From Polytrichum commune (Eukaryota; Streptophyta; Polytrichopsida; Polytrichales; Polytrichaceae), in contig OX485804.1 of assembly GCA_950295325.1 (NCBI GenBank), forward strand, positions 40,362,001-40,426,000: a DNA stretch of 64,000 nucleotides, in the 5' to 3' direction. The translations under genes were made by a program, and so were the position numbers. Below, in pieces: positions 1 through 44,180 of the stretch (its first letter is position 1; each line of letters begins with the position of its first letter). The notes under the pieces are model-generated. The model made no database searches, was not told the DNA's origin, and saw only the letters and a list, made by a program, of their open reading frames with translations.

Positions 1-236
1 GTGCAAAACAGAAAGTCTCCATGTTAGCTCCAATTACTATGTACACAAAGAGATCTACACATCAAATTCGTTTGAAAGGCAAGTTCCAAGGAAGCAACCC
101 TTAACACGCGCACTGTTGGCTCTGCAACCAATTCTCGGGCAGTATCTTATCCATTGTCAACTGGAGACCAATCTCTTTCTTCTTTAACGGTCGTATAGAT
201 CCCCCGCAATTATGTTGACTACTGGGCCCATAATGG

Positions 237-3103: not shown

Positions 3104-4671
3104 CTGCAGGCCAATGAGGACATCAGGAACTAGTTATTGTGACAATCATTTATGCAGGTTCAATGTGAAACCATGTCAGGCGTGAGACATGGAAACGATT
3201 CATTTACCCACTTCTAGATCTGTTTTTGGGGAAACAAACGAATTTCTACTGCACAGAGAAACACAAGTACAACAAGGACGATAGGAATCTAGGAACAACA
3301 AGAAAGAGTTTGTGCTCAAAGGTGCTCAAAAGGAGGAGACACGAACCGGACCGAAGAACCAAATGACCAAGTAGATCTGTGACACTTGTGATTACAACTA
3401 TATGCATGCACTTGTAGGACATCCATATCACAAGATGCAATGCATGCAGCTCCTCATATTCATTTAACGTTGTGATGATCCATGCTATTGAAGGCAGCAT
3501 CTGTATTTGATATACTTGTTTTGTTATCCATTGGCATCTTCTTCTATATGCCACGAATTGCTAACCATTGACAGGAGACGGCCACTAAACCTGAAAAACA
3601 TATCCACTTGCAGCAAGACCTCCAAAACCCGAACCTCACGGATGCTCCCAATAATTTGAAATGCAACCTTTTCGACCCAAGCTTTTGAAGATTATATGTA
3701 ACTCGCTAACCATTCACAGAAGATTGTCAGTAAAATTATATTGATTTGCCTTCGCATGCGAATGCGGCATGCTTCCAATATTCATGCAACCAGATGTTTC
3801 ATCAAAGCTATTCAAGGCAACATGATCTCCAGCTTACATACATACATTACATATATATACATGACTTCTCAAACATTGAGACTGTTTCTAAACTGAGAAC
3901 ATAATATGTATGAGTGCACTTCAAGATCCTCAGTACTGATGCAACATTTGTGGTCCAAGTATTTGAAGGCATACAAATGATCTTCTCATACATAAGACGT
4001 GTTAACCATTAACATTAGACCAGCAGACTGTCACTAAGCTGAGATAGAATACAAGTCTTGCAGGGCGTCCAATACACAAACTAAACTGAATTCTCCCAAT
4101 ACTCGCACAACCTGATTAAATGAAAACACTTTTGAGATTACAGCAAAAGAATCGCTAACAGAAGACATCATGACAGGCTCCGAGGAATAGGTCGATCGGA
4201 TTAAACACAATATACAGCAATTGACAATTACTTCACATCACCTACTCCAAGTAACTTCCAAACGTGATGATCCGAGTGAGGATCATGTGCTAATGAATTG
4301 CTACCTTGACTAACCGCAGGAAGAACTGCAGAAGCCGGAGGAGGCAAATGGATCTGCATGCTTCAACCTACTCGGTGTGATGAGGGATCCTTTTGTAAGC
4401 ATCAGTGACTAGTGTGGATTGACTTGACGGTTGCCAGATCGCAGATCACCACACGTGAATTACCTTTCAAAATGTGAGCAAGGATCTATATTTGCATGTC
4501 CACAATTTCGGAGGAGCGCGGGTGAGATCACCCATTTCCGAAAACGTGTTCAATATACTTAATGTAGTTTTACACATTCGCCAACATGTCGAAGGTGGAA
4601 GCTGGGGAGGGTATGTAAAGCGATAATGTAAGTAAAATGAAACATGTAACTCTGAATGGTACCCACCCTAA
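3104..4671. other. Upstream flank of the left EXORDIUM-CUB gene
   Basis: This stretch has no convincing coding content. It is the 5' side of the minus-strand gene and is duplicated exactly at 23053-24620. It probably contains the promoter and 5' leader. The open frames in it are short, unconserved in style and start in unlikely places. Confidence 0.5.
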
Positions 4672-4674
4672 TTA

Positions 4675-5212
4675 GGGCCAAGTTCCATGTGCCGGTCATT
4701 GTCCGTTTTTTAGATGGGTGAGAAACGGGTGACATCATCCAAAAAATGGGTGATGTCACCCATTTTATGGAGGGGTACTTCTATGTGGGGTGCCGGTTTT
4801 TTTCAATTTCCTACTTTCTAACTAAATTTGGTGAGTGATAAGACATGACACTTTATGAAGGTCACCTAGATTCTAAAAACATCATAAAATACATGTTCCC
4901 TAGGAGTACTCCTCAAAAGAAGGGATTAGAAGAACAAAGTGGCCTTTAGTATCCAAGGGTGTACCCTAGGTGACCGGACGATCCGGTCACCGGAGCTTTC
5001 TAACCGGCACATGTCCCTCTCGTTACCGTTAGGACCGCCGGTCCTTTGGCACCCGTTCTTGCACAACACAAAATGTGGGACACCCATCCGTGGGGGGCAC
5101 CGGTCCTTGGGTGAGAAGGATGGGCACATGGCACCACCCTCTTTTCACCGGCCCACCCATTTATTTTGAAAAAAACGGACCGGGACCGGCACCGGCACAT
5201 GGAACTTGGCCC
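4675..5212. mobile_element. PIF/Harbinger-type MITE, complete, TTA target duplication
   Basis: The element has terminal inverted repeats starting GGGCCAAGTTCCATGTGCCG and is flanked by TTA on both sides (4672-4674 and 5213-5215). It is 538 bp long and GC-rich towards its ends, with internal palindromic stretches such as GGTGACATCATCC-like blocks. The boundary of the inverted duplication (4894) lies inside it. The element at 62018-62969 is a longer, inverted relative that keeps the sequence found on both sides of position 4894, which shows that this copy is the uninterrupted form. Confidence 0.85.
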
Positions 5213-15961: not shown

Positions 15962-17098
15962 TTATTTGTTCACAATGCACAAATTATGCAACACTATACA
16001 AGTGGCTACAATATCCAGCATATTCCGCAAAGACAATTCGCATCGCTTCATTATCACCCTCCACCTATCCTTCAATATCCCAAATGCCCTCTCTACACAT
16101 ATCCTAGTTGAAGATTGAATAAAATTCCAATTAGCCTCTTTCTCGGATAGTATTTTTTTTCCGTCCTTAAACGGACAATACCTCCATGGCTGAACCGGAT
16201 ATACCGCATCCCCTATAAGTTTATATGGTTGGAATTTACCTTCTATACATTCATGTCCGATTCTTGTAACTTCAAATACGCTCCAATCGTGAAGACTTCA
16301 TGCCCACCCAAACTCATAATCCCAAAACATACAATCTGGTCCGACTATTCCTTGCAAAATTGTTGAATGAAATGACTTCCTGCAGTAATAATCTTGTCTG
16401 CCAATTAGAGGGCCTAAAACAAGAATATGTGATCCATCTATTGCACCTATAATATAAGGAATACCGTATAATTTTTCAAACCTCAAAGCTAAAATTCTAA
16501 ACTGTGATTCGTTTGGAGTTTGTACAAAAACTGGTTGTAGATGTTTTCTAACCGCTTTACTAAACTCCCTCACTACTATTGATAATGTATTTTTGTGCAC
16601 TCCATACAAGTCGCCTATAGTTTGCAATCCATCACCACTTCCCAACCGATGCAATGACATTGCTATCATATTTTGCACCGGCACCGTAATCCTAAATTGA
16701 ATTTTTTTTTTCAAATACGGACCCAACCTCTCACACAAAAATCTGAATGTATTGTGTGTCATTCGAGTTCGCTTTCTAAATTCATTCTCCGTCCATAAAC
16801 CCAACAATAAGCGGTCTACGAATCCAATCATCCGTTCTTGACTCCATATACTGCTCTCTCTATACCCCATATTCTCATAAACCAAGCTCAAAATTGCTAA
16901 CTTCTCCCATTTTCCTTGCAAGATCAGCGCTTGAATATCTACCACATGCTTTACGAGCATGTACAAAAACATGTACAATCCTAAAAGCAAAACAAATGTC
17001 CTCCTCCTCTCCTCCATTGCTTGCTGAAATTTTAGGTTCATGCAAGCGAAAACTACAAGACAAATGAAGAGAAAAGAAGTAAAGAGAAGAGAAGTCAA
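15962..17098 (-). pseudogene. PIF/Harbinger DDE transposase with an in-frame TGA
   Basis: The frame begins upstream of MNLKFQQAMEERRRTF (a likely start at 17041) and includes a helix-turn-helix-like stretch around TIGDLYGVHKNTLSIVVREF. The catalytic core follows: the first aspartate in GAIDGSHI, the second in FWDYEFGWA, then a TGA at 16298-16300. In the same frame it resumes SLHDWSVFEVTRIG and carries the third acidic residue in RICVERAFGILKDRW, ending HNLCIVNK at 15962. All three catalytic residues survive, so the single TGA is the main visible lesion. Length fits the family (about 360-380 aa). Confidence 0.88.
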
Positions 17099-17449
17099 TA
17101 GAAGTAAAGAGAATGGTCAAACTTTATTTTTTCCAAAAACTGCATTTTTTTTAATTATTAAAAAAATTAGCACCTCCACTTTTTGGTGCATGGTCATTCT
17201 TCATGGTCCACATTCGGTTTACACCTAGTGAAGGGCCCATAAACCATGAAAACTAATATTTTAGTAACTCGGACCATGGAAGTCGTCCCACGCAAAATAG
17301 GCCTCTTACGTGGGACGACTTCATGGTCCATAGTGTAAACCGCCCCTTAGTGGGATTTGGGACTTGGGACCCGTGTGAACCGGCCCATTAGAATCTACTT
17401 TATGCCAAGCCATGTGACATGTCCATTGATATATAATGTTCTTAATTGA

Positions 17450-18790: not shown

Positions 18791-19109
18791 GTTATATTGA
18801 TAAATATTGCAAGTTGTCAACGTGTGCAACATGTGATAAATGGTTACGACGTGTCGTCATAGCCATTTTTTTATAAAAAAAACTACAACTTTTCTTTTTT
18901 GCACGGGTGTCATTCCTCAAATATTTGTTAACTTTATAAAAGACATGTATTTTTATGATAAATTGGTTAACTCTAAAAATCAATTCAAGATAATAAATAC
19001 TTTCATTTCTCTATTATCTAAACATATATATTGAGAGAAATATAATATAATTTATTTAAAAAGATATAATATAAATCATATTATTTTAGAGATAATATGA
19101 TATTGGATG

Positions 19110-20530
19110 ATGATAAATGTTTACAATGCATCGGATAGACTATAGTCAGAACTTAGGATTTTCTGAGTATACCCCATCTATAATGTTATCCCACAAGTCT
19201 ATTTTCAATTAAGATATCATTTATTTACACATTATATTATATTTTTTATAAAATAAAATTTATCTTTGCATAGTATTTTTTGATATATTTTATTTTTGAT
19301 CTTCATTGTTCCACTTTGGTAATTTAATGAACATATACACTCATCTATAATTTTTGTCTTTTATACCTTATCTAAGTGTTATTACAAGAAAACCTCATCT
19401 CAACTCCTTCTACATATAATAGATGATACAATAATATAATATTTGATGATGATCAATTTTTACACACGGGTAGATCACTCCATTGTCAAGTTGAAAACCA
19501 CGTGCGACCAAAAAAAATCTTCTTTTGGTAAGTTGCACCACCAAAATGGGTTAAAATTTTATCAATTTTTTTTCATGAGTAGATATACACAGTACCTATG
19601 ACATAGTCAAAAGTGGTAACTAAATTCGATGATTTCTTCTTTTTCATAAAACATACCGTTTCTAACTAGAGTGACATAAAATTGAACTAAAACAAAAACT
19701 AAAAAAAATAAAGATGACTAAAAATTTCAAAAAGTTATACAAAAGATACTATCAATGGTTATGTATATGTAGAAAAAATATCATAAATTTTAAAATTATG
19801 TATGGCATGTAATATAGGGGTAGCAAACTTTGTCCGCACGTGGTGTCAACTTGACAATGAAGTGACCTCCCCGTGTTTTTACAATGCATAGGATAGATTA
19901 TAGTCAGAACTTAGGATTTTATAAGTATACCCCATTTATAATGTTATCCCACAAGTCTATTTTCAATTAAGATATCATTTATTTCCACATTATATTATAT
20001 ATTTTTAAAGATAACATTTATCTTTGCATAGTATTTTTTGATATATTTTATATTTTATCTTCTGAATCATTGTTTGACTTTGGTAATTTGATGAACGTTT
20101 ACACTCATCTATAATTTTTGTCTTTTATACCTTATCTAAGTTTCATTAGATGAAAACCTCATCTCAATTCCTTCTACATATAATAGATGATACAATAATA
20201 TAATATTTGATGATGATCAATTTTTACAATGCATCGGATAGACTATAGTCAGAACTTAGGATTTTTTGAGTATACCCCATCTATAATGTTATCCCACAAT
20301 TCTAATTCCAATTAAAATATCATTTATTTTTATGTTATATTATATTATTTAAAGATATAATTTATCTTTGCATATTATTATATTATTATATTTTATCTTC
20401 GTTATTTCACTTTGGTAATTTTATGAATATTTACACTCATCAATTATTATTTTTTATACCTTATCTTAGTTTCAATCCAAAAAAACATCATCTCAACTCC
20501 TTTTACATATAACAGATGATACAATATATT
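19110..20530. repeat. Three AT-rich tandem units of about 310-345 bp
   Basis: Units start near 19119, 19876 and 20221. Each contains GCATCGGATAGACTATAGTC-like and ATAATGTTATCCCACAA blocks, a poly-AT middle and a TAATAGATGATACAAT end. A 411-bp MITE separates units 1 and 2; units 2 and 3 are adjacent. No coding capacity is visible. Confidence 0.9.
19465..19875. mobile_element. MITE with 41-bp inverted repeats and 8-bp target duplication (hAT-like)
   Basis: The ends are CACGGGTAGATCACTCCATT and, in reverse complement, CACGGGGAGGTCACTTCATT, continuing in near-identity to CCACGTGCG. TTTTTACA flanks the element on both sides (19457-19464 and 19876-19883). The junction of tandem units 2 and 3 shows the same TTTTTACA once, giving the empty site. 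An 8-bp duplication and CA-starting ends fit the hAT superfamily. Confidence 0.88.
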
Positions 20531-22829: not shown

Positions 22830-23049
22830 ATGTATTTTATGATGTTTTTAGAATCTAGGTGACCTTCATAAAGTGTCATGTCTTATCACTCACCAAATTT
22901 AGTTAGAAAGTAGGAAATTGAAAAAAACCGGCACCCCACATAGAAGTACCCCTCCATAAAATGGGTGACATCACCCATTTTTTGGATGATGTCACCCGTT
23001 TCTCACCCATCTAAAAAACGGACAATGACCGGCACATGGAACTTGGCCC
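22830..23049. mobile_element. Truncated copy of the 538-bp MITE at the duplication edge
   Basis: It matches 4675-4894 in reverse complement, ends at the intact GGGCC terminus by 23049 and is cut at 22830. The missing half is present only at 4895-5212. This marks the right arm as the derived copy. Confidence 0.9.
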
Positions 23050-24620
23050 TAATTAGGGTGGGTACCATTCAGAGTTACATGTTTCATTTTACTTACATTA
23101 TCGCTTTACATACCCTCCCCAGCTTCCACCTTCGACATGTTGGCGAATGTGTAAAACTACATTAAGTATATTGAACACGTTTTCGGAAATGGGTGATCTC
23201 ACCCGCGCTCCTCCGAAATTGTGGACATGCAAATATAGATCCTTGCTCACATTTTGAAAGGTAATTCACGTGTGGTGATCTGCGATCTGGCAACCGTCAA
23301 GTCAATCCACACTAGTCACTGATGCTTACAAAAGGATCCCTCATCACACCGAGTAGGTTGAAGCATGCAGATCCATTTGCCTCCTCCGGCTTCTGCAGTT
23401 CTTCCTGCGGTTAGTCAAGGTAGCAATTCATTAGCACATGATCCTCACTCGGATCATCACGTTTGGAAGTTACTTGGAGTAGGTGATGTGAAGTAATTGT
23501 CAATTGCTGTATATTGTGTTTAATCCGATCGACCTATTCCTCGGAGCCTGTCATGATGTCTTCTGTTAGCGATTCTTTTGCTGTAATCTCAAAAGTGTTT
23601 TCATTTAATCAGGTTGTGCGAGTATTGGGAGAATTCAGTTTAGTTTGTGTATTGGACGCCCTGCAAGACTTGTATTCTATCTCAGCTTAGTGACAGTCTG
23701 CTGGTCTAATGTTAATGGTTAACACGTCTTATGTATGAGAAGATCATTTGTATGCCTTCAAATACTTGGACCACAAATGTTGCATCAGTACTGAGGATCT
23801 TGAAGTGCACTCATACATATTATGTTCTCAGTTTAGAAACAGTCTCAATGTTTGAGAAGTCATGTATATATATGTAATGTATGTATGTAAGCTGGAGATC
23901 ATGTTGCCTTGAATAGCTTTGATGAAACATCTGGTTGCATGAATATTGGAAGCATGCCGCATTCGCATGCGAAGGCAAATCAATATAATTTTACTGACAA
24001 TCTTCTGTGAATGGTTAGCGAGTTACATATAATCTTCAAAAGCTTGGGTCGAAAAGGTTGCATTTCAAATTATTGGGAGCATCCGTGAGGTTCGGGTTTT
24101 GGAGGTCTTGCTGCAAGTGGATATGTTTTTCAGGTTTAGTGGCCGTCTCCTGTCAATGGTTAGCAATTCGTGGCATATAGAAGAAGATGCCAATGGATAA
24201 CAAAACAAGTATATCAAATACAGATGCTGCCTTCAATAGCATGGATCATCACAACGTTAAATGAATATGAGGAGCTGCATGCATTGCATCTTGTGATATG
24301 GATGTCCTACAAGTGCATGCATATAGTTGTAATCACAAGTGTCACAGATCTACTTGGTCATTTGGTTCTTCGGTCCGGTTCGTGTCTCCTCCTTTTGAGC
24401 ACCTTTGAGCACAAACTCTTTCTTGTTGTTCCTAGATTCCTATCGTCCTTGTTGTACTTGTGTTTCTCTGTGCAGTAGAAATTCGTTTGTTTCCCCAAAA
24501 ACAGATCTAGAAGTGGGTAAATGAATCGTTTCCATGTCTCACGCCTGACATGGTTTCACATTGAACCTGCATAAATGATTGTCACAATAACTAGTTCCTG
24601 ATGTCCTCATTGGCCTGCAG

Positions 24621-27487
24621 ATGACGAAGATCTCAGTCAAGGCATATTGTGTAGTGGCTTTGGTCCTGGTTTTGGTGCATATCAGCGTACAGACCTGTGA
24701 GGCAGCAAGACATGCACGGAAACGTTGGAGTTCGTTACATGATAGCAGTGAACCTGGGGCAGCTTCCTTGTTGCCCTCTAGGACTCCGAAGGGCGTGACA
24801 TACCGGCCACCGATTGTCAACTTCAAGTATCAAGGAGGAAGGGTAAGTACCAATCTCAGTTTTTCTAAATAGTGCAAGGTCAGTCAATCTTGAGTCTCTA
24901 TATCATGCCTATCGAGCAGCAGTTAATCGTAAGTTGTTTCCATTAATCCATTGTCTCTAGTGTTGGAAACAGTTTCTTGTGTATAAGCGGGACTGAATAA
25001 TTACCATCAACAGTAATGCTGCTTGGTGCCCTCCTTGATTGGTGCCCTTCTTGTGTTGTCTTAGGAATTTTTTTCAATAGGTAGACTATGACATTGTAAA
25101 ACCTTGAAGTTTCCTTATCGACTTGTCTCAGTATAAAGATGTTTTTCGCAATGAATATATGAACCTTCAGATTTAACATTGACCTATTTTGGAACTGCTT
25201 TTGTATTAATGCAAGCATCAAGAACACTACAAATTCCAAGAAATTTCATAAATACCTGGGAATGTGGATGTTGACTAACTTCTGATTGGTTCTGATTGAC
25301 CATTGACTCTGACAATGTCAACCTCTTCTGCTTTAGACACAAACATGGTCTCAATGAATTCCTCTTAATGGATAATTCCGTCTTTCCAGCTATGTTACTT
25401 CTTTTTGCGAAACAACAAACCATCAGTACATTAGAAGCATGAGAAGTGATTTAGAAACCGTTGATATTCTAATGGGGTACAAGGTATAGACAAACTTTGA
25501 AGATTCTCGTATTTAGGATTTTTGCATGGTCCCCGCCTTCTTCAAGAACCTCTACACATCTTCTTCCTTAAACGAAGAATGTGTCATGGAGACTTCATGT
25601 TTCACTCCGCATTTTTAACATCATCACAGCAATGTGCAGATCATGTGGAAACCGGTACACATCTACTTCGTGTGGTACGGCACATGGACAGAGCAACAGA
25701 AGAATGTGGTTCGAACGGCCACAAATTCCCTCACTCCAAAGCACCCGATCCCACAATGGCCGAACTTAAGCAACATGTACAAGCTCGTGACGGAGTATTA
25801 CCAAGAACTTCCTGGAGAATCACGAAAGTATGCAAGCAAGAGCGTCACCATAGCCGGTGAAATTGACGACGCATACTCGTTCGGTCAGACAATCGACGCC
25901 GGCATCGACCCCGTGCTCATCATCGGTAACCACATCGCTAATTATAGCCTTCCGGAGGACTACGAGCAAGGAATTTACTTCCTCTTCACCTCCGGGGACG
26001 TCACATTCAGAGTGACAAGTTACTGCGGCTACCACTATTCCAATTGCAATGTAACAACCACGAATAATTGCTCCGACTGGTCAAACAATAACTTCATCTA
26101 CGCTTTTGTCCCCCTCCCGTCCGAGACCAACGACCTTATCTATCACTGCAGTGCGTTCAATGCACCACCTGTATTTAACCATGGTTTGGATGTTAGACGG
26201 GCTCCGAACAAGAAGGTTTCACCCGACGGAGGGCTTGATGCTATGACGAACGTTTACATTCATGAGCTTCTGGAGACGATTGTGGATCCATATGGAACTG
26301 CGTGGTTGTATAATGTCACGGAGAATAGCGAGGTCGAGGATTTGTGTGAGTTCAATTTCGCCGCGGGAGATTGGTGGTACTGTTATGTGCCGAGCATTTA
26401 CCCCGATTTCCCTACCAACAATTCGGAATGCTACAACTTCCTGCATGCGTTGGTTGAGCCTAAATCCAACGCATTGTTCAATGTTTACGGTGAACATGGA
26501 TCCCAGTTTCTAATTCAGAAGATCTGGAGCTTGGAGATCAAGGGATGCGCTACTCAACCTGTTGGTGAGTCTTTCAGATTCACATGACAATGTATAGTGG
26601 TTGCCATGTAACATATCTACACTAACAATTATACTTAGTGTCAGCGGTTGAACATTCCTTGTCATTCCTTGTAAAAGTGAATTTGGGCATCATAGATTTA
26701 CAACGTTGTAATTACTGTCCCTTGCTTAGTGTTTGAAATGGCGATATTATCAACGTTTGCAAGTTGTTGTTGTTTCGAAGTCCCGCAGTATGAGTAGCTC
26801 AATCCATTCTAGGTTTCAACGAGTCAGAGATCCTGGCATGTTTCAGATTTGCGTCCTAGTTTGACCTGTGCCGTTATCTTCCCGCGCCAACGGGGAGCGT
26901 CTCGGAACGGTAGTGCGCCAACCACATAAGGTCCACATGATATAATAAGCTTCATGGATCTCGTATGTGTAATGTTATACAGAGAATTGTGCTGCCAACA
27001 CCGTGGTGCTGCATAAACCCAAGGGAACCATCCAGAAAGGCTTGTTCTTCGGCGGAGTCGGGTTGCAAGTCTACGCCCCTGGCCAGAGCTGCAAATGGAA
27101 AATTCTGGTGCGGGGTGCGAAGTCCATCACCCTCTACTTCGAAACGGTTGCACTAACCTACGACGAGCTGGATTTTATCAAAGTGGGCCACGAGAATGAT
27201 GTGCAGGAGACGCTGACTGGGTTTGGGAAGAACATAAAGGTGACAGTCTTTGGAGATGAGGCCAACATACACTTTAACTCGCATGGTGGTAGAAGTCCCC
27301 AACCAGAGTCGGCGGGCTTCATCCTTCACTACGCTGCAGGTAAATCTTTAGAAACTCTTCTGCCAATCGTGTATGTTTCGTCTAGCGTGTTTTGAGGTAA
27401 AGTACCCAGGACTAATTCGCCTACTCACTTTGATTGTTGTGCACGAACACCACAGAGAGATGGGATCGTGTGTTGAAAATTTGTTAA
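24621..27487 (+). CDS. EXORDIUM-like secreted protein with C-terminal CUB-like domain (right copy)
   Basis: Exons are 24621-24842, 25640-26564, 26983-27339 and 27456-27487, with GTAAGT, GTGAGT and GTAAAT donors and AG acceptors. Lengths sum to 1,536 nt, that is 511 aa plus stop. Intron phases are 0, 1 and 1. The N-terminal signal peptide is followed by the EXORDIUM domain (about residues 62-380) and the CUB-like domain (about 384-501). Canonical EXORDIUM proteins end shortly after the position where exon 2 stops (IWSLEIKGCAT), so exon 3 is the added module. Expected location is the cell wall or apoplast. The copy is complete and identical to 237-3103, with at least 1.5 kb of identical upstream DNA, so both may be expressed. 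Exon 4 is the weakest part of the model. Confidence 0.85.
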
Positions 27488-27723
27488 CCATTATGGGCCC
27501 AGTAGTCAACATAATTGCGGGGGATCTATACGACCGTTAAAGAAGAAAGAGATTGGTCTCCAGTTGACAATGGATAAGATACTGCCCGAGAATTGGTTGC
27601 AGAGCCAACAGTGCGCGTGTTAAGGGTTGCTTCCTTGGAACTTGCCTTTCAAACGAATTTGATGTGTAGATCTCTTTGTGTACATAGTAATTGGAGCTAA
27701 CATGGAGACTTTCTGTTTTGCAC

Positions 27724-29500
27724 CCTCCCAGTGTATCAAACATGGAATTAATTACAAGATTGTTAGCAAATTTTCATCATCAAAGTGAAGATTCTTTTGT
27801 CCTTCTAAACAATCGTGTTTTTAGTCCATGATGTTTTTAGCGTATGTCCTTTTAAACTTGCGTGTCAAACAATCAAGGTTTCACCAACCAAATCCTCAGC
27901 GAAGCAATGGAAGTATTTGTAGTGGCCAAACATGTATCTTTTCAATGTTATTCATGATGTGGGTTGTGTTATATTGTGGCAGGTTATTCGTTGTAACTTC
28001 CATTTCATCATTCAAGCGGTCCATTCGTTCAAGTTCTCCATGTTATGGCGTATGAGGTGGAGTGATGAACATGTCAGCTTCCAAGTAATAGACACCATCA
28101 AGTTCCATTGCTTTACAAACTAGCATTTGTGAGAATCCGATTACTTAAGAGCAATGGTGTTATTGCAATTTGAGACATGTGGAAAAAATTGTTAGGAATT
28201 GAGAGCAAGAGCTCAACAAATTTGATTCTTTACCAACTTATCATGCTTCCAGTTTCGGTGAATAGTCTTTCTCACATGCATCTGTTTCTTAAAGGGTGTG
28301 CTCATGTCAAGTATCATTGTTGTAAGCTGTGAACACCCTCTTGTAATGATGGGTCCCCTCCCATTTCACTTGTATGCCTTGATGTTTATGAGAATGTTGG
28401 TGCAACACGGACCAAACTAGTACCTTGGACAAATTCAGCACTTATTAGCATGTCGATTTTGAAAGTGCCGAAATATATGCGTGGAAATTTTGAGATTGAG
28501 TTGGAGTTGTCACTATCCTCATTTATTTTTAGATGTGTCCATGTATTATGGTCTTGATGTTTTTGGTTTGCCCATTATCATGGAAAGAACCATGAAGGGG
28601 ATTGCGTTGGAAGTGCTTCATAATTCATATGCATGGGTACAATAGAGTAGGACGAAGCATGTATTGCCTAGTTACATTACATGAATCAAGGGTTCCCTTA
28701 AAATACTTGTACCAAAATGGTTACAAGAAGAATTCTCTCTTGATTAGATCATGGGTATGGCAAGCATGAAGTATCTCAATACTTGCACAACAAAGCTGAG
28801 TAACTTGGACGTTGTGTGTCTTCCTTGTTAATCATACCCATATTGTATAAGTGGGAGTGATATTTGTTAATCGCCACGGTTGACTCGAGATGCCAACTCA
28901 GTAGTTTATCTTGAATTAGTGTTTCCCGCCTCTCTAAGTTGAAGTTAGTGATTTCCTGCCCATATTTGGGAATGTGTGTCAACATTCTTAGTATAAAACT
29001 TCTATATATGCAAAGAAAGGGTTTGTAGGACAGTTTAGAAACGAGGAGGGGAGAAAAATATGTAAATACTCTAATATTCAACTAACAAAATATTGAAGTG
29101 CATCAAAGTTTAATTTCCTTTGACAATCAAGACTACTGCCCTAACAATCATATCAACTTTTGGACCTTGAATAATGTACATATTCAAACCGGGGAGTCCA
29201 ATCGCATTGTGGCACGTGTCCTTCTAGTGTTCGTGATGGAAAAAGTTGTGAAGTTTCACAAATGTCATTATCACATTTGATGTGTTGGGCCATACCCAGT
29301 ATCCCATCATAAGTAACAATGAAAATTTCCTTTGTATTTTGAACGGCCTTCAAGCGTGTAACTCGCCTAGAGCTTCTGTGGGAGTGGATTATGATTCATT
29401 GTGAGAATTTTAGAGCATATGGCATCCACCAACCTCACAACACTGAATATCCTAATTAGTGTGTGTGGTTTTAATTCCCGGTACACAAGCTATTTTGCCA
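27724..29500. other. Non-coding stretch
   Basis: No supported gene. A short block TCATCATCAAAGTGAAGATTC at about 27776 belongs to the dispersed repeat seen again near 49240 and 52180. Other frames are short and featureless. Confidence 0.45.
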
Positions 29501-29504
29501 AGTC

Positions 29505-30712
29505 GTTAAACTAGTGACGGCTCACACAAGCAACTTCCAACCGTTTCCCATGGGAAGAACATGGGACATACCTCTTAAATCCCATGGGTCACAATGTTAT
29601 AGATGGGAAGTTTGCATGTCCCATGATAGAGGGGAATCATCATGGGACAAACCAAAGTGAGATGCATCAAATATGAGAATTTGTTTCATCTCACAATTGT
29701 CCCTCTCAATCAAAGGAACAATTTTAATTTTTTGATAATGAGAATACAAATTTTTTATTTCAAAACATGATGGCCCCTCCACACTTGGCTCTATCTCCGC
29801 CAATTTATGGTTTTTATTTTGACAATGAATAACGTATCATTGTGAGCTCCAAAAATCATCGGAAAAGTGACTACGACTTCAATTTGGATTTGCTAATCAT
29901 CTCATACTAATCACAAGTTTATTATTGAATGTCCATGAAAAAAAGTTTTATTTTGTTTCATTTTAGAGATATTGTAGATCTAGTCTAGATATGGATGTGA
30001 CTCACCTATATAAGTATTTACCTATGTGTGTGAGAGAGAGAGAGAGGGAATTACCGCCTACAAGTGTTTTTCATTCATCCAACAAGAAGCCTTGAAATAG
30101 TAAACAAGCCTCAACTTACTATTTCTAGTCATTTAGACATTGGGTTTAGGCTCACAAATCCCAAATTAGTTCAATCCAATTTGTTTAAATGAATCCGCCA
30201 AAAATCTATAAGGGACAAGTTTTTATGTTGGATGGAGGAGAGGTGTTTTAATTTCTACATTCTTACATCACAAGGTAAATGCCAACTTTACATATTAACT
30301 ACTTAAAAGCCCTTCAAATGCAATGAGGCAGTGGCTAAGGTGTTGGAGTAGGGTTGTGAGGTCCAAGGTTCAAATCCATTCACCAACACCCCTAGAGCTC
30401 ATCTATAAGTGGGAGGAGCCTACCTATAGGTTAGACCAAGTTTATGGAATGTATATAATTATCTTCTTTTTTTCAAATTTCCCTTTGAAAAAACTTCCAA
30501 GTAGCATATTCCCATCATCCATACAAAATGTCCCATCTACACAATTTCCCATGTACAATTGAACATTCCCATTAGCAATTAAGGGACATGAGAAAAATTC
30601 CCACTCTTTCCACATTCCCTTCCAAGCCTTATGAACCACGGGACATGAAAGAGATTTTTGGGAATTTTTCCCATTGGGACACAAGTGCAAGTTCCATGTG
30701 TGAATTTTTTAC
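29505..30712. repeat. Possible diverged terminal-inverted-repeat element
   Basis: The left side (CACACAAGCAACTTCCAACC, then TTTCCCATGGGAA) resembles the reverse complement of the right side (CACACATGGAACTTGCACTT, then CCCAATGGGAA). Many CCCATGGG-type palindromes occur at both ends. Internal sequence includes a dispersed-repeat fragment (29815-29940), a GA microsatellite near 30030 and a SINE. The ends are too diverged to fix precisely. Confidence 0.3.
30318..30480 (+). mobile_element. tRNA-derived SINE
   Basis: An A-box-like CAGTGGCTAAGGTGTTGGA lies about 30 bases upstream of GGTTCAAATCC, a perfect B box (GGTTCRANYCC). The body continues with CACCAACACCCCTAGAGCTC and ends in a T-rich stretch. 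Spacing of the boxes matches tRNA-type pol III promoters. No intact tRNA cloverleaf is present. Confidence 0.7.
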
Positions 30713-31259
30713 TAAGTGGTGCTAAATTCATGAATACATGTTCATTTATCATGCATTTTAAGAAAATTACCGCATGCTCTAAGGTGTTTGTAGAGTGATG
30801 TTTTTTTAATTAAAAAAGTGAATAGTGCTTGGATGAATAGTGTGGTTACTATATGAGAAATGTGTTGCTATGAATAGATTCTCAATGAACATTGGTTCCT
30901 AGATCGTTTGGTGGCACTGATTTCATAGCGCAAGAAATTTAGTATCACCTGTACTAATTTCCCACACTCGCTTTTAGCCCTCCTTCACTAATTGGGATAA
31001 TCGTTGTAGTACGGACCTGTATCATTTCAGCCCGTTCCACTTGTGCATAGGAATCTATGCCTAGACTTTCTATTCAACATGTTTCATCAATACCGACAAC
31101 ATTATGGTAGCCTCACCACCGCCAACACCACTGTGTCCCTCATAATCTCTTGCAATAGTACATTGTGTTGGTATTATGGTCAATGTTGGTTTGGGATTAT
31201 ACATACATGACTTGGGTTTACCAACAACGGTGACGTTTCCGGAAGCTTAATGATCCTAT

Positions 31260-33070
31260 TAGTGTGGGTCATAATTTCTAATGAACATCCCACATTAATT
31301 TTAGGCAACACCTTGTAAAATTGACCACACAACCATAAGTTGTTAGAGAAACAAATAGGATGCACAAGCTTATGGGGTAAAAAACAAATTAGTGAAATAA
31401 TTAAAGGTAAAGCAACATACACATTTGGACATTCACATGTATATCATATAGCTTTCATTTTAGTGTGTTCCGTCGCCAATCCTTGGTATTTCTCCATAAA
31501 AATATAACATTTCCGCAAAACAATGTCATCCACAAGAATATTTGTCAACAAAATTTGTGTCAATGCATCAAGTGCTCCAATTTCAAGCTAGCTCGCAATG
31601 GCTCTTGGTCAAGTTTTGCTTGGACAAACCTGTCTCACATTATTGTACTAGAAGGGCGTCACTTTGCCAAAGTCTATGTAAGCCATGCCAATTGGCGGAC
31701 CACTAAAAAGTTATGGTTGCATGAGATTTCCCAAGACGTGTTTGGTAAATCTATTCCATATTATTTACACCATCTTAAAGTACTTGCATCAACATCTATC
31801 AAACTTATTATTAGAGAATTTGAAGTTGATACAATTTATATTTTAAATGCTCAACCATTATGGAGTTGCATGCGTCTTCTCCTCATCACCTCTAGGAGCA
31901 TCAAATAGGAATAAACAACTTACATGCATCGTTTGTATGGAGGTCAAGAAACCCATCAAATAAGCAATCCATTGTTCTTTGCACATGATACTCTACTTCA
32001 ATTATCTAGCACCTTTCTATAGTCCCAAAGCAATCACAAAGATGATAAATGTACCACATTTATGCATTTTAAGCATCCAAATTTCTCATTGTAGTATATA
32101 ATGTTGCTTTTGGATTGAATACTTTCCTTGCTTGGGCTTACCATCACGGGCCATTTATTAGAAGTTGCTATCATGGTTTGTAGAGATGTTGGATAAAAAA
32201 TAAAGTAAACAAAAAATTGCTCATAGGACATGTCATTTTCTAAATGGAATTTAGAACATGTGAAATTAAATAGGAATGTGTATACTAAACAATTGCCGGA
32301 TGCTTGAGTTTTATTTAAACAAGTTGCCCAATGCAAGTATCTTCACAACTTTCATAGATTTACCTTCATGACATACCAAGATCGCATTAAAACTTCAAGA
32401 ACTATACTGATCGACATTCACATGTCCATATGGTATCTTGCAAAATTGAGCACACAACCTCGAGTTGTTAGTAAAAACGCATGTGTACAAGCTTGTGGTG
32501 ATAAATATAAAATATGGTAGATAATTAATGGTAGAACAACACATCATGAACATGAATGCCATATAACTCTCATTCACGAGGGTTGACCCTCAGTTCCTCA
32601 TGTTTGTTCATAACAATATAACATTGTCTAATCAATATCATTCATTGTATCGTTTGGTAAAATAATTGGTGTTAATGCATCAAATGCTTCCAATTTCTAA
32701 CTAGTTTGCAAGTGGCTCTTGGTCAATGGTTTGCTTGGCTAAATCTCTCTCAAGCATTGTTATGCTAGAAGGGAATTACTTTGCTAGAGTTTGTGTAGTA
32801 AGCCAAGTCAATTGGTGAACCTCTAAGAAATTGTGGTTGCATAAACTCATGACACCTCCCAAAGGGACTTGTTTGGAACTATCGTTGTAACTTTACACCA
32901 TCTAGAAGCACTTGCCTTGGAATCTATCTTGCCCATTATGGGGGACTTCAAACTTGATTTTAAAAAAATCCTTCTCTATCATTTTTGAGTTCCATGAGTC
33001 TTCTTCTCAACATCTCTAGGATAATAAAATATGGCTAAACAATTATATCCATTCATTGTATAGAGGTCAA
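31260..33070. repeat. Degenerate direct duplication, period about 1.1 kb
   Basis: Positions about 31280-31930 and 32400-33040 are diverged copies in the same order: a GACCACACAACC/GAGCACACAACC block, a TGTCAATGCATCAA block, a GGCTCTTGGTCAA block and a CTCTAGGA block. A 147-codon frame in the first copy (31465-31908) is destroyed in the second, so I do not call it a gene. Confidence 0.65.
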
Positions 33071-33086
33071 GAAACGTAGCAATTAA

Positions 33087-33530
33087 CACTAGAAGGAATC
33101 GTGTCCAAATCAACCTTGCTCTGCAATGATGGCAACCACTATGTCCACTGCCATTCTGACTAAAATCCACATTCTAACTACCACCGTGACTGCACTTTGG
33201 GTATATGTCAGCAAATGTTGGGTGTAACCTGGTTTAGATGGGTGACGGTTGTGATGTCAACCCGATCAGTTGACCACCACTGTTTTGGTAGCCTTTGGGT
33301 GGCGTTCTTTGTGTCTCAGGTTTGGGTTTTGGGCATAGAGTTGCAAGTGGGTTGGCGTTCATGAATTGCACGATGAATTGGCGAGGGTGGCCGCCATATG
33401 TGGGTGGTTTGGCACCTATGTCGGGTGTCATTGGCGCACCCCCGCGCCATTTGTATTTTGGTCATTTCCTCTCCTTTCCTTTGATGGGCTTGTACTCTCT
33501 CAGGGTGTTTGCTACCCAAGCATAAACTAA
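33087..33530 (+). mobile_element. Third CACTA-like terminus
   Basis: It starts CACTAGAAGGAATCGTGTCC and is alignable over its length to 5769-6226, up to the shared GCTACCCAAGCATAA block. Beyond that the two diverge. No matching opposite end was found. Confidence 0.6.
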
Positions 33531-36500
33531 TTCTCCCATATGAAAGAGCTTTTGCACATACAAGAAGTATTGTTCCATGCAAAATCCTAAGGTGGGAGGG
33601 AACAACATTTGCCTTTACATGCAAAAACTTTGTTTTTTACCCTAGTTGCTTCATATTTGTTGTCGCGCACCTCTCCATGAGGAGTGCCCAAAACACCATG
33701 GCCACAAGGGGGACCCCGGAGTGACACCCGGGACTTATGGCACTGTTGGTGAGAGGGCCCAAGTGATCCTAGTGTGGGTGAGGGCCCCAAGCGTTCGGAA
33801 GGCCTCCCACCCACAGAGACTAGGAGTCACGAGGGTAAGGCCATAAGTGATGCGTAGATTATGGCGTGCGAATAATATAATGCTTAAGAACACCTCAATC
33901 AGAGGTGTGAGCTAGGAGATATGGCAATTTGAGTGGGGCGTTGTCGCCCTAGTACAGCAGTGGCCTAGGAGTGGCTCCCATAACTGCCAAGGTTTGAGCG
34001 GGCATAACTTCCTCAATAATAAATCAAATGGAGCTAGTAAGGAATTTATTGGCATCTACATGAAAGGTAGATGATGATGGAGTGGTCACATGTGAGCATC
34101 AAAGTTCATACAAGGAAGTTATGTTGTTTTGAAGTTGTTAGGGGCTTCCAGCCCCAACGGCTAAGGGAAAATGACTACTTGTCCCCAACTCTTGGTAATG
34201 AGACAAAAGGTTTCTTGACAGTGGGGTAGGGGCCCTGCCTAGAGTCCTAGAGGTTTATATGGGTGAGGCGATGTGGCCACCAAACCCACCCAAGGCTGAA
34301 CGGCACGGCCTCAACGGTCATTGGCCCAACATTAGGGCATAGTTGCCTAGTATGGTTCAAGTTGTCATGATGTTGCTCTGGCAACATGATGATCAACTGA
34401 AGATTGGACTTTCATGGATGAAGTCCACATCTTACCATTGGTTACCAATTAAGCAGTGAGTCTTGAATGCAACGTAGGAGGGTTGGTCCCCCTCCTATGA
34501 ACTAAAAGGTCCGCAGTATGGGAAGCTAACCATTCACATGGCAAAATGCAAAGGAATAGCGCTCGTGACCCTTGCTAGAATTAGAAAATGACCAAGATTA
34601 TTAAGGGGCGTTATCAAGGGTTGCGATATTTATGGATCTAGACCACAATAAGAGATGGCGACCATAAACCCCCCGGTAAGTGCAATTGCCATGAACATGT
34701 GGGGGACTCACATCCGCAATCCACCTCCTCAACATTGAGAACCATGCTCAATGTGCAGGTCCGTGGTTTTGAGGTGTTCCTTGCACACGCAGAGGTCACT
34801 CGCACAATGCTTCCCTACGCAACATATGTGGAATTGAGCCACATAGGCGTGCGATTGCTACAAGTGCGGCGAATACAGGTGGAGTTTCTATGGTTTAGGG
34901 CTCTTCATGTGGGTTTACCGCAACTTCAATTCAGAATTGAACCGTGGATTTTTTTTTGGGCCCGTGTGGGTCATGTGTTTTTATGTTGTATGGCGGTTTA
35001 AGTATGTGGGATTTTGCACATGTTCCATACCCGTGCTCAAATGTGTGCAACACCTTTAATTCTTGAACACCAACATTTTTGGATGTTTTTGTGATTGTCA
35101 ATCATGGTTACATTGCACATCCGTCCATAGAATGTTGTCGGAATTATGATTTGGCTTCAATCATATGTCATCCATCTCCTCCCATGCTCGTACAACATTG
35201 TGGATTGTCCAATCCGTCCCTGGCCATCGTACCTTTGGCACAAAAAAATTCCCATCAAAACACGGCATTTCAATTAAGCCAATATGTTTTCAAAGTCGAC
35301 ATATGCGGGATGGGCGGCTAGGTCCCCACGTTGCGCTCATGCATGAATATCAACACATAATCCTTGCCTTGGTGTTTGGCAGAACATTGTAAAAGAAAAC
35401 AATAGCACCAAAAGAGTTCACATGTTGCACATGTTGTGGTTTGTAATCCGTGGCCAGTGCAATGTGATGGGTACACAGTGGAGGCACACATTGGAGGCTT
35501 CCCGCCCACCGTGTCCACGGACGTTAGGTCTAGATGCATGGATCTCCCTCAACAAAGATGTCCATTGTTCTTGGGTGAAGGGAGCAAGTGTGCCCAAAAT
35601 GATGGCGAACCCATCTAGGGATCATTGGCACATGCCAATGAGTTAGTCCTACAATTAACTTATTGCAAGCTCCTTTGGTACAACCTGCCTTTGCAACAAT
35701 TCCAAGTGTGCATGTCATTGCTCAATCTCATGTGGTGGATGTCAAGGGGGGAAATGATGATAACAATGAAGGAGATTCCTCCGGTTTACTACAATACTTT
35801 GGACCACAACAACCGGCGGTTGCACACATACCATCACTAGAATTGCATGGGAGTCGTTGCCCATCCCTCAATTTGTTGCGTTGGATGGTTGTTGTGCACC
35901 TATGCTTGGTCATGCACATGGGACATGCTCATAGGGTGGCGGCAACAATGCGGCAAACCATGTGTGTGGAGAATTTCATGGATCTGCGAGCGGATATTTT
36001 TAGGCAATCAAAATACGGGCCACGAAACTTGTATTTGTGAACCAACCTGTGTTGGCCACACGTGCAGAGACTTGGGTGGTTGGACATGTTTTGGAAAACT
36101 ACATTTGCTTGTTGTTTGGGAGAGACCTCTATGATGCGGAGTTTGGGGATTCATATGGTCATCAAACTATTCTTGTTGGTGATTATGAATTATGGTGAAA
36201 CATAGAAGAACCCTTTCTGGTCTCCGAAACACTTTTGCAACCTCTTTTTGAAAGGTGACCTCGAAGGTGATGAAATGACCTTCCCCAATTTATGGTTTGC
36301 GAGGCGTGATACACCACCGCTTCTTGATGGATATAGATTGTGCGGCGACCACCAAATTTTGGATTGTTCTTTCTATGTTGTAATTTTATGTGTGCAGCCT
36401 CTCATATATATTCTTTGTCATGCCATTCTCCTTTGGGATGAAAGTTTTTTTTTGTATGTTGATCGTGGAAATATGCTCTAGTGTTGCCTGCCACGTGTGT

Positions 36501-38504
36501 GGTTCTAGTGTTTCTGGATTTCCATGTCTCCGCTTCTTCTCCTCAAGAGAAGCTCACAAACATATCTAGGGGCATCAATATACAAGTTCTTTTGAATGTG
36601 CATGATGGTTGTAGCTAAGGTTGGTTGCGTCAGAGTTGTTGGCACTCATTATCTCCCATATTTGTATAAGGGTTTCATGTTGAACTCTTGTTTCCAGTAT
36701 GTCCTTGCAAACATGGACTGCAAGTCAATTATACGTCCATTTTGGGTATCTTTTCTTTACCCATTCCACATGCGCATTACCCTCCCCCCCAATTGACGCT
36801 CACATATACATGTATCCATAACAATCAATTGTCATTTTTAATATGTATTAATATAGGAAGCATACAAAACATACAATGTGTCTAAGCCCCCAAATTTGGG
36901 AATTAAAACCCTATTTGTGCCTTCTCTTATCACTGTTTGTGCCCCATGGACTACATGGTTCTGCCCATAGGGGGTTCAACACAATCTGCACGTTGATGTG
37001 TGTGTTTAGTGTTGTGCATGTGCAAGTACCTTTCCCCCAAGTTGACATATTCTTCTGTTTGTTACTACTAGTGGACAAGTGACCACCTATCAAGGAGTCG
37101 ATAGTCAAGAGCCAATGCATACATCATGTATCAACAATTTATTGCCCTTGCCATATGTGGGAGATACAACATGCACTGCAACAAGTTTTTCATTTTCATT
37201 TCTGTCTTGTTGGTGTTGTTTCCACCCTCAAACGGTGGCCTGGTTGCACTCAATCTTCATAAGATACGTTGCCAAAATCACCCCTAAACAAAGGTGCCCT
37301 ACGTCTCTCTCGTGTTATTATAGCACCCACCATGTTATGAATGTTTGATGTGGGGTGCATCAAGGCTTAAGCCTCTAAGGCTGGAACACACACCCATGTG
37401 TTTATGACCTCCTCGTAGTCAGAGACTTGAGACCTTCTAGACCTTGGCTCGCTATGTAGCACAACGTACCAAGGTCCAATGTTGTCTGCGTTGGCGTAGA
37501 AAACCTGCTAGATGTGAAATAACGGCACGAAAGAATTATGCGGATGTTCTACCATGCATAAAAAATTGGCCAACAAAAAATTTGATTTGTCTCTTTTATA
37601 TGTGGGTTCTCCCATGTCGTCCACGTCATGCCTCACCCAATCGCACTTCATAAAGGCAATGCGTGTAGCAACTTTTATGTAGTCCATTACTCGTATGTGC
37701 TTTAAAACATCGACATAGTATATTTAGCCAACACTTCTCCAATATCAGAACCTTGCACATTCCATGTAGATGTCGAACCGCAATCACAACTCACCATTCC
37801 AACCGAGGATCCATCGGTCAAACCGATAACGATTTCCTTACGCCTCCATTATGGAATATAAATTTATCATCAATTTTCGGGGCATTGAGAGTTTTTTCAT
37901 ATCTACGTCTCTCATGACTTTTCCCGTTTTTTCCAACTTCCGCAAAACCTCCCTCACCCACACAAACAAACTTGGAAATATAGTAATCGGGGCTTCCAAA
38001 TGCACTGCAGCCTCGAACTCTGCTCGAGCTTCACTACTACCCTGTATTAATATAATCTTCCATGATAAGATAAACATTTTTATGGCATTTGGATTTTGAA
38101 TATGGCTAGAAAACAAGTTCTATTATGGATATGGTTTTTTATAAACGGTTATGAATGATTGTGCGTACTAGTTAGAATGATACATGTGTAGTGATTGGAA
38201 CGATGTACGGTTTAAAAACACATACTCATTGGCAATATCTCTTATGTAGGGTATAATAATGAATGTGGTTGCAGCTCCTTATGGTACCTCCCTAATAATT
38301 CTTGTAACAGTATTTTTTGTCCAAATTTTGCGATGTAGTGGCTCATATTTTTTAGCCATGAATTATGCCACTAGTCTGATTACCTCGTCCAACATATGCG
38401 ACTTCGTCATGCATATCTTTGGCCTAGCTATGTTGCTCACATACACTTTTAATAACTTATTCATTCTTTATGCGTTGTACATTCACCGTGTGTACACGGG
38501 TCTG
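33531..38504. other. Long stretch without a recognisable gene
   Basis: Many short frames occur on both strands, but none has a recognisable domain, consistent codon style or exon chain. The sequence is likely decayed transposon DNA. I could not assign it to a family. Confidence 0.4.
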
Positions 38505-41640: not shown

Positions 41641-43440
41641 CACAAACATTTCTCAAACCTAATAAATGCCCACTTCGCTATAGAACAACAACGTGATACA
41701 AGATATGTTACCCCCGCTACAATTATACCAATGGCACATATCTCTATCTATGAATGCAACCCCGAGAGTGATATAGAAACCAACGCCAACACTATATAAA
41801 CACATTTTGATGTCGCCCACATATATGAAGATAATGGGTGACACCTCATCACCATTCCCAAAACCAGACTACATTGGTTATGGAAACAATACCAACTCGT
41901 AAAAAACACCCCACATGGACTAGAACCACCCACACAATCATTTGAAACTGAAATCGTATGGCTATACCAACGATACAAATACCGCATCCCAAAGAATGAC
42001 CCTTTGAAACTGGCCCAATACACACTACCAACACCAATATTAAACTTCCTCACCACATCATTTAATGTTAATCACTCATACTTTTCATCTCCAGTCACAT
42101 GCCCTATACACCTCAACCAATTCTACTCACCATTCCCAATAGACAAGATATTTGGATCCATAGGGAAAGCCTTCGATCATAAATGGAAAGGAATAGGCTA
42201 CGCCCACCCAAATAATGCAACAGACCTACTACAGGCCATACATTGGGCTCGTCTTGCCGCCAAAATAGATCCATATACCATCACAATAATCATATCACCA
42301 GATACCAACTGGTACCAAAACTCTGACCCACATTCCAATCCATATCCAGACACACATATCATCGCCCACTTTGCCGCAGATACCATTACATACGAAGAAC
42401 CCACTATACCACCAGAATTAAACATACCTAGAAAAGAACCTTCCTCGATACAAATATTCTGCATACACCACCAAAATAACACTATAGGAACCCATGACCA
42501 ATTAAACCAACTCACCTATATAGCAAACAATCTCTCAATACAACAACTACACACCCAAATTGCCACACACACTCCCCCAAGCACCCCTGTCAATGCTAGT
42601 AAAAAATGGTCCAAACTCAATTACCCAAATACCCCTCTATTCAATGAAATACCTATACCTCAACTACCTAACTATCAAACTAATTTACCACTAAAATTCC
42701 ATCCACAATTTAGCTACTACACCGATGGCTCATTCAAAAAACCTAAAGAAATCCTCCCAGGAACATGGAGAAGAGAAAAAGCAGGATATGGCATCTATAG
42801 CCCTAAAGGGCTTAGCATCTCCAAAAGACTACATGGTCATCAAAATATCCTACGTGCAGAAATGATTGCTATCCATGAAACACTACGAATCATTAATAAC
42901 CAATACCCAAATGAACCCGCATACATATTTACTGATAGTCTAAACGTACTATATCTACTAAACACACAAATTAAACACCCCACTCTACACAATAGTTACC
43001 CCGACCAAGTCACACTCGCCTCCATGGTCCGACTGCTTCAAAACCGATCCCAACCTATCACACTATACAAAATAAGGGCACATATCAACATAGACGGTAA
43101 TGAACAAGCGGATAAACTAGCAAAAGAAGGCCTAGGCCTACCTCATGAAAACGCTATACATCCATTCGAACATGCCCACGCTATACCATTCTACTATCAA
43201 AAAGACGAATGGCCCTCCATGATAGACACACCAGACAAAGGCCCCGTTAGATTCCTAGAAAAACAAATTATAAAATACGATAGAATAAAAAACCTAGAAC
43301 CTATGGCCACACACACCCCTAATATCCATAAATATAATGGACAGGAAATGCAAACATCGACAAAGAACTCTTCAATGAATTTTGGAACAACCCTAATATT
43401 ACAGACAAACAAAAATCTTGCCTCATCAAATTTCGTACGG
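41641..43440 (+). pseudogene. LINE middle domain and RNase H
   Basis: The first part (about 41641-42600) has a domain I cannot name. It includes FGSIGKAFDHKWKGIGYAHP, then an AIHWARLAAK helix and TIIISPDTNW, an arrangement loosely like an adenine-methyltransferase fold, but the diagnostic NPPF-type motif is not clear. The RNase H domain follows at about 42710-43130. All active-site positions are visible: YYTDGSF, ILRAEMIAIHETL, AYIFTDSLNVL, and AHINIDGNEQADKLA. Two stops lie before 42004 and a frameshift near 43340 disconnects the C-terminal part. Confidence 0.75.
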
Positions 43441-44180
43441 GAACTCACATGGGCCACGCCAGAAAACAACTCTTCTTTGGCAGGCAAAGATACCCTACCA
43501 TTACTTGTCCTATCTGTAACTCATATGAACCAGACACATGGCTACACGTACTACTTACATGTAGACAACAACATATACACTCACTTCACGTTAAAAGACA
43601 TAACAAAGCTGTATGGGAAGTAAGAAAAATGCTAATATCGTCCGAAAAATCCAGATGTTACACTCTCATGAACGCTGGTACATTCAATAACAACCCCCAA
43701 GAAAACACCGTCCCTAATTGGCTATTACCATGTACATGTGGAACCCAAAGATGCCATTGTAACGCCCGATTTAGACCCGACATCCTCTGCGTTAAAGGGT
43801 TGCCATACCAAAACGAACCACCCACAAATATTGACCAAAATCTTATCATACAATTCATCGAATTCACATACTGTAACGACAGATTCTCACCGGAAACACT
43901 CGAAGCTAAAGCTAACAAATATAGACCCTTAATAGAAAACATAGCTGCTAAAGGTTGGAAAATTGACCCGATCATCGTTATTACGGCAAGCGCTAGAGCT
44001 GCAACACACACCCCATCAATGAAAATACTTGAAGACAAATTCAAACTACCTATGCCAGCCATTCGAAACACCTTTAAAAACATAAACACCATTGCCATAC
44101 AATATGCCATGTCCATCCTCCTCCACAAAAGAAGATTAGAAAATAATCAACCTCTACCTCAATTACAAGACCCCCCCTAG
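43340..44180 (+). pseudogene. LINE C-terminal zinc knuckle and PD-(D/E)XK-like endonuclease
   Basis: After the frameshift the frame reads KFRTGTHMGHARKQLFFG, then a CPIC-x9-H-x4-C knuckle near 43520. A cysteine-rich CTCGTQRCHC patch follows. The segment RFRPDILCVKG, then IIQFIEFTYCNDRF and LEAKANKY, fits the RPD / E-x-T / helix arrangement of restriction-like endonucleases seen at the C terminus of several non-LTR lineages. The frame closes at 44178-44180. The nuclease call rests on motif shape only. Confidence 0.55.

Follow-up and report, generated by a model that had tools for sequence, protein, structure and literature searches.

CUB domains have been described chiefly in the extracellular proteins of animals. 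A symmetric 1-1 exon is the usual form for the exon of a mobile module. Two disulphides are common, though not universal, among CUBs, and the Glu-Asp-Asp calcium site is confined to a calcium-binding subset. In tolloid and ADAMTS13, CUBs steer a metalloprotease.

EXORDIUM proteins, which carry the Phi_1 domain, promote brassinosteroid-dependent growth, their biochemical function being unknown (PMC13103426). The canonical Arabidopsis member EXO is apoplastic, growth-promoting and needed for leaf cell expansion, and its biochemical function is likewise unknown (PMC2661892, PMC13103426). In the 2009 literature, a single Solibacter protein was noted as a bacterial EXORDIUM homologue. A clade V of EXOs from P. 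patens and S. moellendorffii is described in PMC8481617. Among the matches listed we found no relevant paper on an EXORDIUM/PHI-1 protein with a CUB domain, bearing in mind that absence from the literature is not absence from protein databases; in the matches looked into, 'CUB' was either the short form of a journal name or, in polyphenol oxidases, the copper-B site.

Here we analyse a gene in a 64,000-nucleotide stretch of the Polytrichum commune genome (the window). We propose, with a probability of roughly 0.6, that this gene belongs to a plant EXORDIUM–CUB (EXO-CUB) family of secreted two-domain proteins, in which a CUB was joined to the end of an EXORDIUM through a phase-1 intron before the family expanded. 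Four elements of this explanation come from computation: that both domains are present, that the junction is conserved, that the genes form one clade and that the CUB is under selection.

The window gene and its two domains

The gene, on the plus strand, comprises four exons separated by GT-AG introns, and its spliced translation is a single 511-residue frame that ends at a TAA stop at 27485-27487 (Table 1). Exon 1 encodes a hydrophobic N-terminal segment resembling a signal peptide (MTKISVKAYCVVALVLVLVHISVQTCEA) as well as YRPPIVNFKYQGGR, which leads into Phi_1. Hydropathy of the protein peaks at 3.2 over residues 10-21 (12-residue window), and a sequence scan found six N-glycosylation sequons. 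From its hydropathy, the EXO-CUB protein is predicted to be secreted to the wall space. The weakest piece of the gene model is the 10-residue exon 4, since the exon 3 frame could instead be read through as far as a stop codon at 27395; a tail is also seen in the close paralogues L038–L040.

Table 1. Coordinates of the EXO-CUB gene, its second copy and the inverted duplication within the window
Feature	Position	Strand	Description and basis
Exon 1	24621-24842	+	Open frame, GTAAGT donor; conserved in paralogues
Exon 2	25640-26564	+	Divergent Phi_1/EXORDIUM domain with HELLETIVDP; PF04674 E 3.6e-25, paralogue and bacterial alignments
Intron 2	26565-26982	+	Phase 1; exactly between EXORDIUM end (KGCATQPV) and CUB
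Exon 3	26983-27339	+	CUB domain, residues 384-501; Pfam, PDB profile, fold matches, purifying selection
Exon 4 (tentative)	27456-27487	+	Tail ERWDRVLKIC and stop; acceptor CACAG, open frame
Second identical gene copy	237-3103; exons 2882-3103, 1160-2084, 385-741, 237-268	-	Inverted repeat, 100%
Right arm, perfect inverted duplication	22830-38414		15,585 bases identical to left arm

The PF04674 match spans residues 69-379 and nearly the whole profile (positions 2-275 of 276), with 89.3 bits against a gathering cut-off of 25. Like EXORDIUM/PHI-1 proteins, the window gene has Phi_1 over nearly its full length, an N-terminal hydrophobic segment and the same conserved Cys at the end of the domain. 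Unlike them, EXO-CUB proteins are divergent, most scoring about 46-133 bits per exon match where canonical copies in the same genome score over 300, and they differ further in keeping HExxE and in having extra introns and a C-terminal CUB.

The sequence-only reading had described a CUB-like pattern in exon 3 (CKW, alternating hydrophobic stretches and GFILHY), and the pattern is present as described. When the protein was searched against Pfam for the EXORDIUM and CUB domains that had been proposed, both were matched, the CUB profiles passing their cut-offs with exon 3 alone: 24.6 bits for CUB_2 (PF02408; E 2.2e-5, cut-off 23) and 24.3 bits for CUB (PF00431; E 4.1e-5, cut-off 21.4). With the full 511-residue protein the scores were 21.8 bits for CUB_2 and 21.0 bits for CUB, both slightly under the cut-offs, and two paralogues scored 31.3 and 28.7 bits for CUB. 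Searched against the PDB, a profile built from the exon 3 sequences of 13 paralogues retrieved cubilin (2.4e-12), procollagen C-endopeptidase enhancer 1 (PCPE-1; 8.3e-10) and MASP-1 (1.8e-5). The AlphaFold single-sequence model of exon 3 was all-beta with eight strands and of low confidence (mean pLDDT 48.5). Nearly everything that this low-confidence model matched was a CUB jelly-roll, in line with the fold suggested at the outset: CUB-containing chains made up the best 33 matches in Foldseek, and CUB proteins the best 50 rows in VIA (Z up to 9.7, 105 residues, 2.8 Å). With so low a pLDDT the fold match calls for care, though the independent sequence profile points the same way.

Invariant positions in the 13-paralogue alignment of exon 3 are C2, G14, Y30, G33, C36, F52, D60, D63, P105 and GF111-112, presumably the set expected of a CUB having the first disulphide only; C2 and C36 form that first pair, and the second pair is absent. 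With the CUBs of cubilin, PCPE-1, MASP-1 and Kremen (PF00431, PF02408), exon 3 shares the first disulphide pair, C-x-W, F, YD, GF and the terminal Tyr, as well as a predicted eight-strand all-beta fold that matches CUB structures and a symmetric 1-1 exon, here of 357 bases. It differs from them in lacking the second disulphide, in a first-loop insertion that places 34 residues between the first two Cys, in being fused to Phi_1 in a plant and in missing most of the calcium-site residues: as aligned by eye, the Asp of YD is invariant (D60), the third Asp (TDG) occurs in some paralogues and the Glu is not evident. Judging from the profiles and the predicted fold, exon 3 is a CUB domain. Points that count against our explanation are the pLDDT of 48.5 for the exon 3 model, the missing second disulphide, the loss of most of the calcium site and the loss of the Phi_1 motif in some paralogues.

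The EXO-CUB family and its junction

Profile searches of the P. commune assembly (408 Mb, seven large chromosomes), on which all genome-wide counts are based, revealed about 18 chromosomal loci in which a divergent Phi_1 exon is followed by a CUB exon, besides one identical extra contig and several fragments. Taken by itself, exon 3 has about 18 genomic homologues that are intact or nearly so, far beyond what chance would give, and most of them are just downstream of a Phi_1 exon. The earlier picture of a single odd gene was therefore too narrow, as the gene belongs to a multigene clade of about 18 loci. Except for fragments, no CUB exon was found in the genome away from a Phi_1 copy, and none near the eleven canonical Phi_1 genes in this genome that score over 300 bits. 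The CUB profile also found no relatives in viral contigs. The extra contig, C46, probably represents an assembly duplicate: its locus (L045, C46:3500-12500) and L044 (C3:42496500-42503500) are identical over 7,001 bases.

In every locus with a resolved join, a phase-1 GT-AG intron lies just past the last conserved Phi_1 Cys, which is the point at which canonical EXORDIUM proteins end; the claim that the CUB-like exon sits where ordinary EXORDIUM proteins stop was thereby confirmed in all resolved paralogues. Purifying selection acts on the CUB exon, with omega of about 0.16-0.4 in informative pairs and 0.16-0.29 in most of them, for example 0.16 for L046 and L047 (dS 0.65) and 0.29 for the window gene and L039 (dS 0.09). 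More distant, near-saturated pairs gave 0.17-0.27, and very close pairs such as L039 and L040 have too few changes for an informative value. Pairwise identities of the Phi_1 and CUB exons correlate (r 0.79, with 0 of 10,000 permutations as high). In a Phi_1 tree that included eight CUB-less canonical EXORDIUMs, the EXO-CUB sequences form one clade (support 99), the canonical copies another (95), and the bacterial sequences stand apart (98).

These results bear on a rival view in which exon 3 belongs to a downstream gene of its own, or is a pseudo-exon that is never spliced in, and in which translation actually stops within intron 2 to give an EXORDIUM without a CUB. We consider this view highly improbable. 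Retention of intron 2 would indeed end the protein after seven extra residues (GESFRFT), near the ordinary EXORDIUM length, and in paralogues it adds 2 to 54 residues before a stop; splicing could give forms with and without the CUB, and the early stop in intron 2 could be chance. However, the phase-1 junction is identical in every resolved paralogue, exon 3 has neither its own start codon nor a signal peptide, and no CUB other than fragments was found in the genome away from Phi_1. A chance downstream exon is disfavoured because phase-1 splicing is conserved, the CUB exon evolves under purifying selection and the two domains co-diverge. On the sequence evidence, EXORDIUM and CUB are paired throughout an established family rather than by accident in one gene; one fusion with duplications afterwards would be the simplest account.

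Inverted duplication around the window gene

The window gene lies within a large inverted duplication (Table 1), and its identical minus-strand copy had gone unremarked in the sequence-only reading. Positions 1-4894 of the window are the reverse complement of 22830-27723 at 100% identity; from 4894 the left arm extends past the left end of the window by about 10.7 kb (to about 40351310 on C2), and the inner ends, at 4894 and 22830, enclose a spacer of 17.9 kb. Possible origins are a real palindrome with gene conversion between its arms, a very recent duplication or an assembly artefact. The spacer contains a minus-strand ORF resembling a PIF/Harbinger-type transposase (16298-17116; IGAIDGSHI), which has no Pfam match at E 0.01, and several repeats of about 350 bases each that are 86-92% identical (19092-20529). 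Elsewhere in the window, at 41842-43620, a retroelement-like ORF with an RNase H match (4.1e-13) is preceded by a PCIF1_WW match (2.6e-11), an odd pairing.

A second inverted EXO-CUB pair, likewise in divergent orientation and with similar spacing, is found on C7, at 41.55 and 41.58 Mb (L038, C7:41546500-41554500; L039, C7:41578500-41583500), with a CUB fragment beside it at 41547712. Its arms share 99.6% identity over the 4.7 kb compared, and identity to the window pair is about 90%; conceivably, gene conversion has kept the arms of an ancestral palindrome uniform. Exon 2 of L038, L039 and L040 has lost HExxE, reading YELLS or YELLA in its place (YELLS in L039). Between L039 and the window gene, omega is 0.91 for the Phi_1 exon and 0.29 for the CUB exon, which suggests that Phi_1 may be relaxed or changed there while the CUB is conserved.

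The conserved HExxE site of Phi_1

One scan found 79 bacterial loci with Phi_1 homologues, many more than the one Solibacter protein of the 2009 literature. These (L056-L134) come from Acidobacteriota, Myxococcota, Pseudomonadota, Verrucomicrobiota, Actinomycetota and Elusimicrobiota, and nearly all have HELEE..TDP. Bacterial Phi_1 proteins resemble EXO-CUB in this motif-bearing domain and differ in that no CUB is present in any of the ORFs found; the CUB profile also matched none of 12 bacterial genomes holding Phi_1, in a search that had no positive control. We aligned exon 2 with 10 paralogues and with 67 bacterial homologues. Near-invariant in the bacteria (exon 2 numbering) are H208, E209, E212, D216, W222, E231, D234 and C236, the HExxExxxDP motif being kept at H in 66, at the first E in 67, at the second E in 65 and at D in 67 of the 67. 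The window gene retains the bacterially conserved residues (HELLETIVDP...EVEDLC; H282, E283, E286 and D290 of the motif in protein numbering), and HExxE is kept in about 11 of the 15 EXO-CUB copies read. Two of the eight canonical EXORDIUMs checked keep HELAEISSNP or HEIAEISSNP, and the other six have LAG there instead.

One interpretation is that Phi_1 has a zincin-type fold and would bind a metal through its HExxE helix, with the CUB presenting substrates in the manner of tolloid, PCPE-assisted or ADAMTS systems. Besides the bacterial conservation of H208, E209, E212, D216, E231 and D234, it draws on a model of exon 2 built with the bacterial alignment (pLDDT 74, pTM 0.79), in which a single predicted helix (198-215) has H208-E212 in its C-terminal half. 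The matches of this model are mainly metzincins, weak in score but consistent: of the top 39 rows in Foldseek nearly all are adamalysin/ADAM-type enzymes or one archaemetzincin (best E 0.012, probability 0.97), and VIA gave a metzincin match with Z 8.9 (149 residues, 3.9 Å). However, the best Foldseek E lies above 0.001, a PDB sequence search with Phi_1 returned no relative up to E 5, and NCBIfam gave no match. Comparison of Phi_1 profiles with M43 and Reprolysin_4 by hhalign gave no support, with sets of 3-4 sequences that are too small to count against the relation. The HExxHxxGxxH/D zinc motif is absent, the window gene having HELLETIVDP and the bacteria HExxE(x)3D, and six of the eight canonical EXORDIUMs have lost even the shorter motif. 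We therefore regard a metalloprotease as unlikely on balance, and a zincin-like Phi_1, as predicted by the model, as a lead that merits testing but falls short of a finding. Less likely still is the broader proposal that the EXORDIUM Phi_1 derives from widespread bacterial HExxE zincin-like metalloenzymes, that the plant lineage independently built a metalloprotease-plus-CUB design and that ordinary EXORDIUMs mostly lost the active site.

Alternatively, EXO-CUB may be a non-enzymatic wall or signalling protein with two binding modules, its HExxE being structural or a remnant. This possibility, which we hold tentatively, is in keeping with Arabidopsis EXO, an apoplastic, growth-promoting protein with no established biochemistry (PMC2661892, PMC13103426), and with the absence of the motif from most canonical copies here and from some EXO-CUB copies. 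Against it stand the near-perfect motif in distant bacteria and its retention in the majority of EXO-CUB copies read.

Under the EXO-CUB explanation that we prefer, Phi_1 would perform chemistry or binding through the conserved HExxExxxDP site, and the CUB would be a docking module that places Phi_1 on a wall protein, a glycan or a partner, by analogy with CUBs that lie beside enzymes in animal extracellular proteins. The safer statement is that a secreted domain, binding or catalytic, is probably combined with a CUB as its docking module. In being predicted to be extracellular and in having a putative zincin-like domain followed by a CUB, EXO-CUB resembles tolloid/BMP1, ADAMTS13 and other animal metzincin–CUB proteins; unlike them, it has HExxE instead of HExxHxxGxxH, no detectable sequence relation and no known activity. 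If the zincin reading were true, the EXO-CUB architecture would parallel that of tolloid and ADAMTS13. The family is a further, plant example of a CUB module that sits, as in animals, on a symmetric phase-1 exon, and a clade that combines a motif conserved in bacteria with a recognizable docking domain offers a concrete handle on the biochemistry of EXORDIUM proteins.
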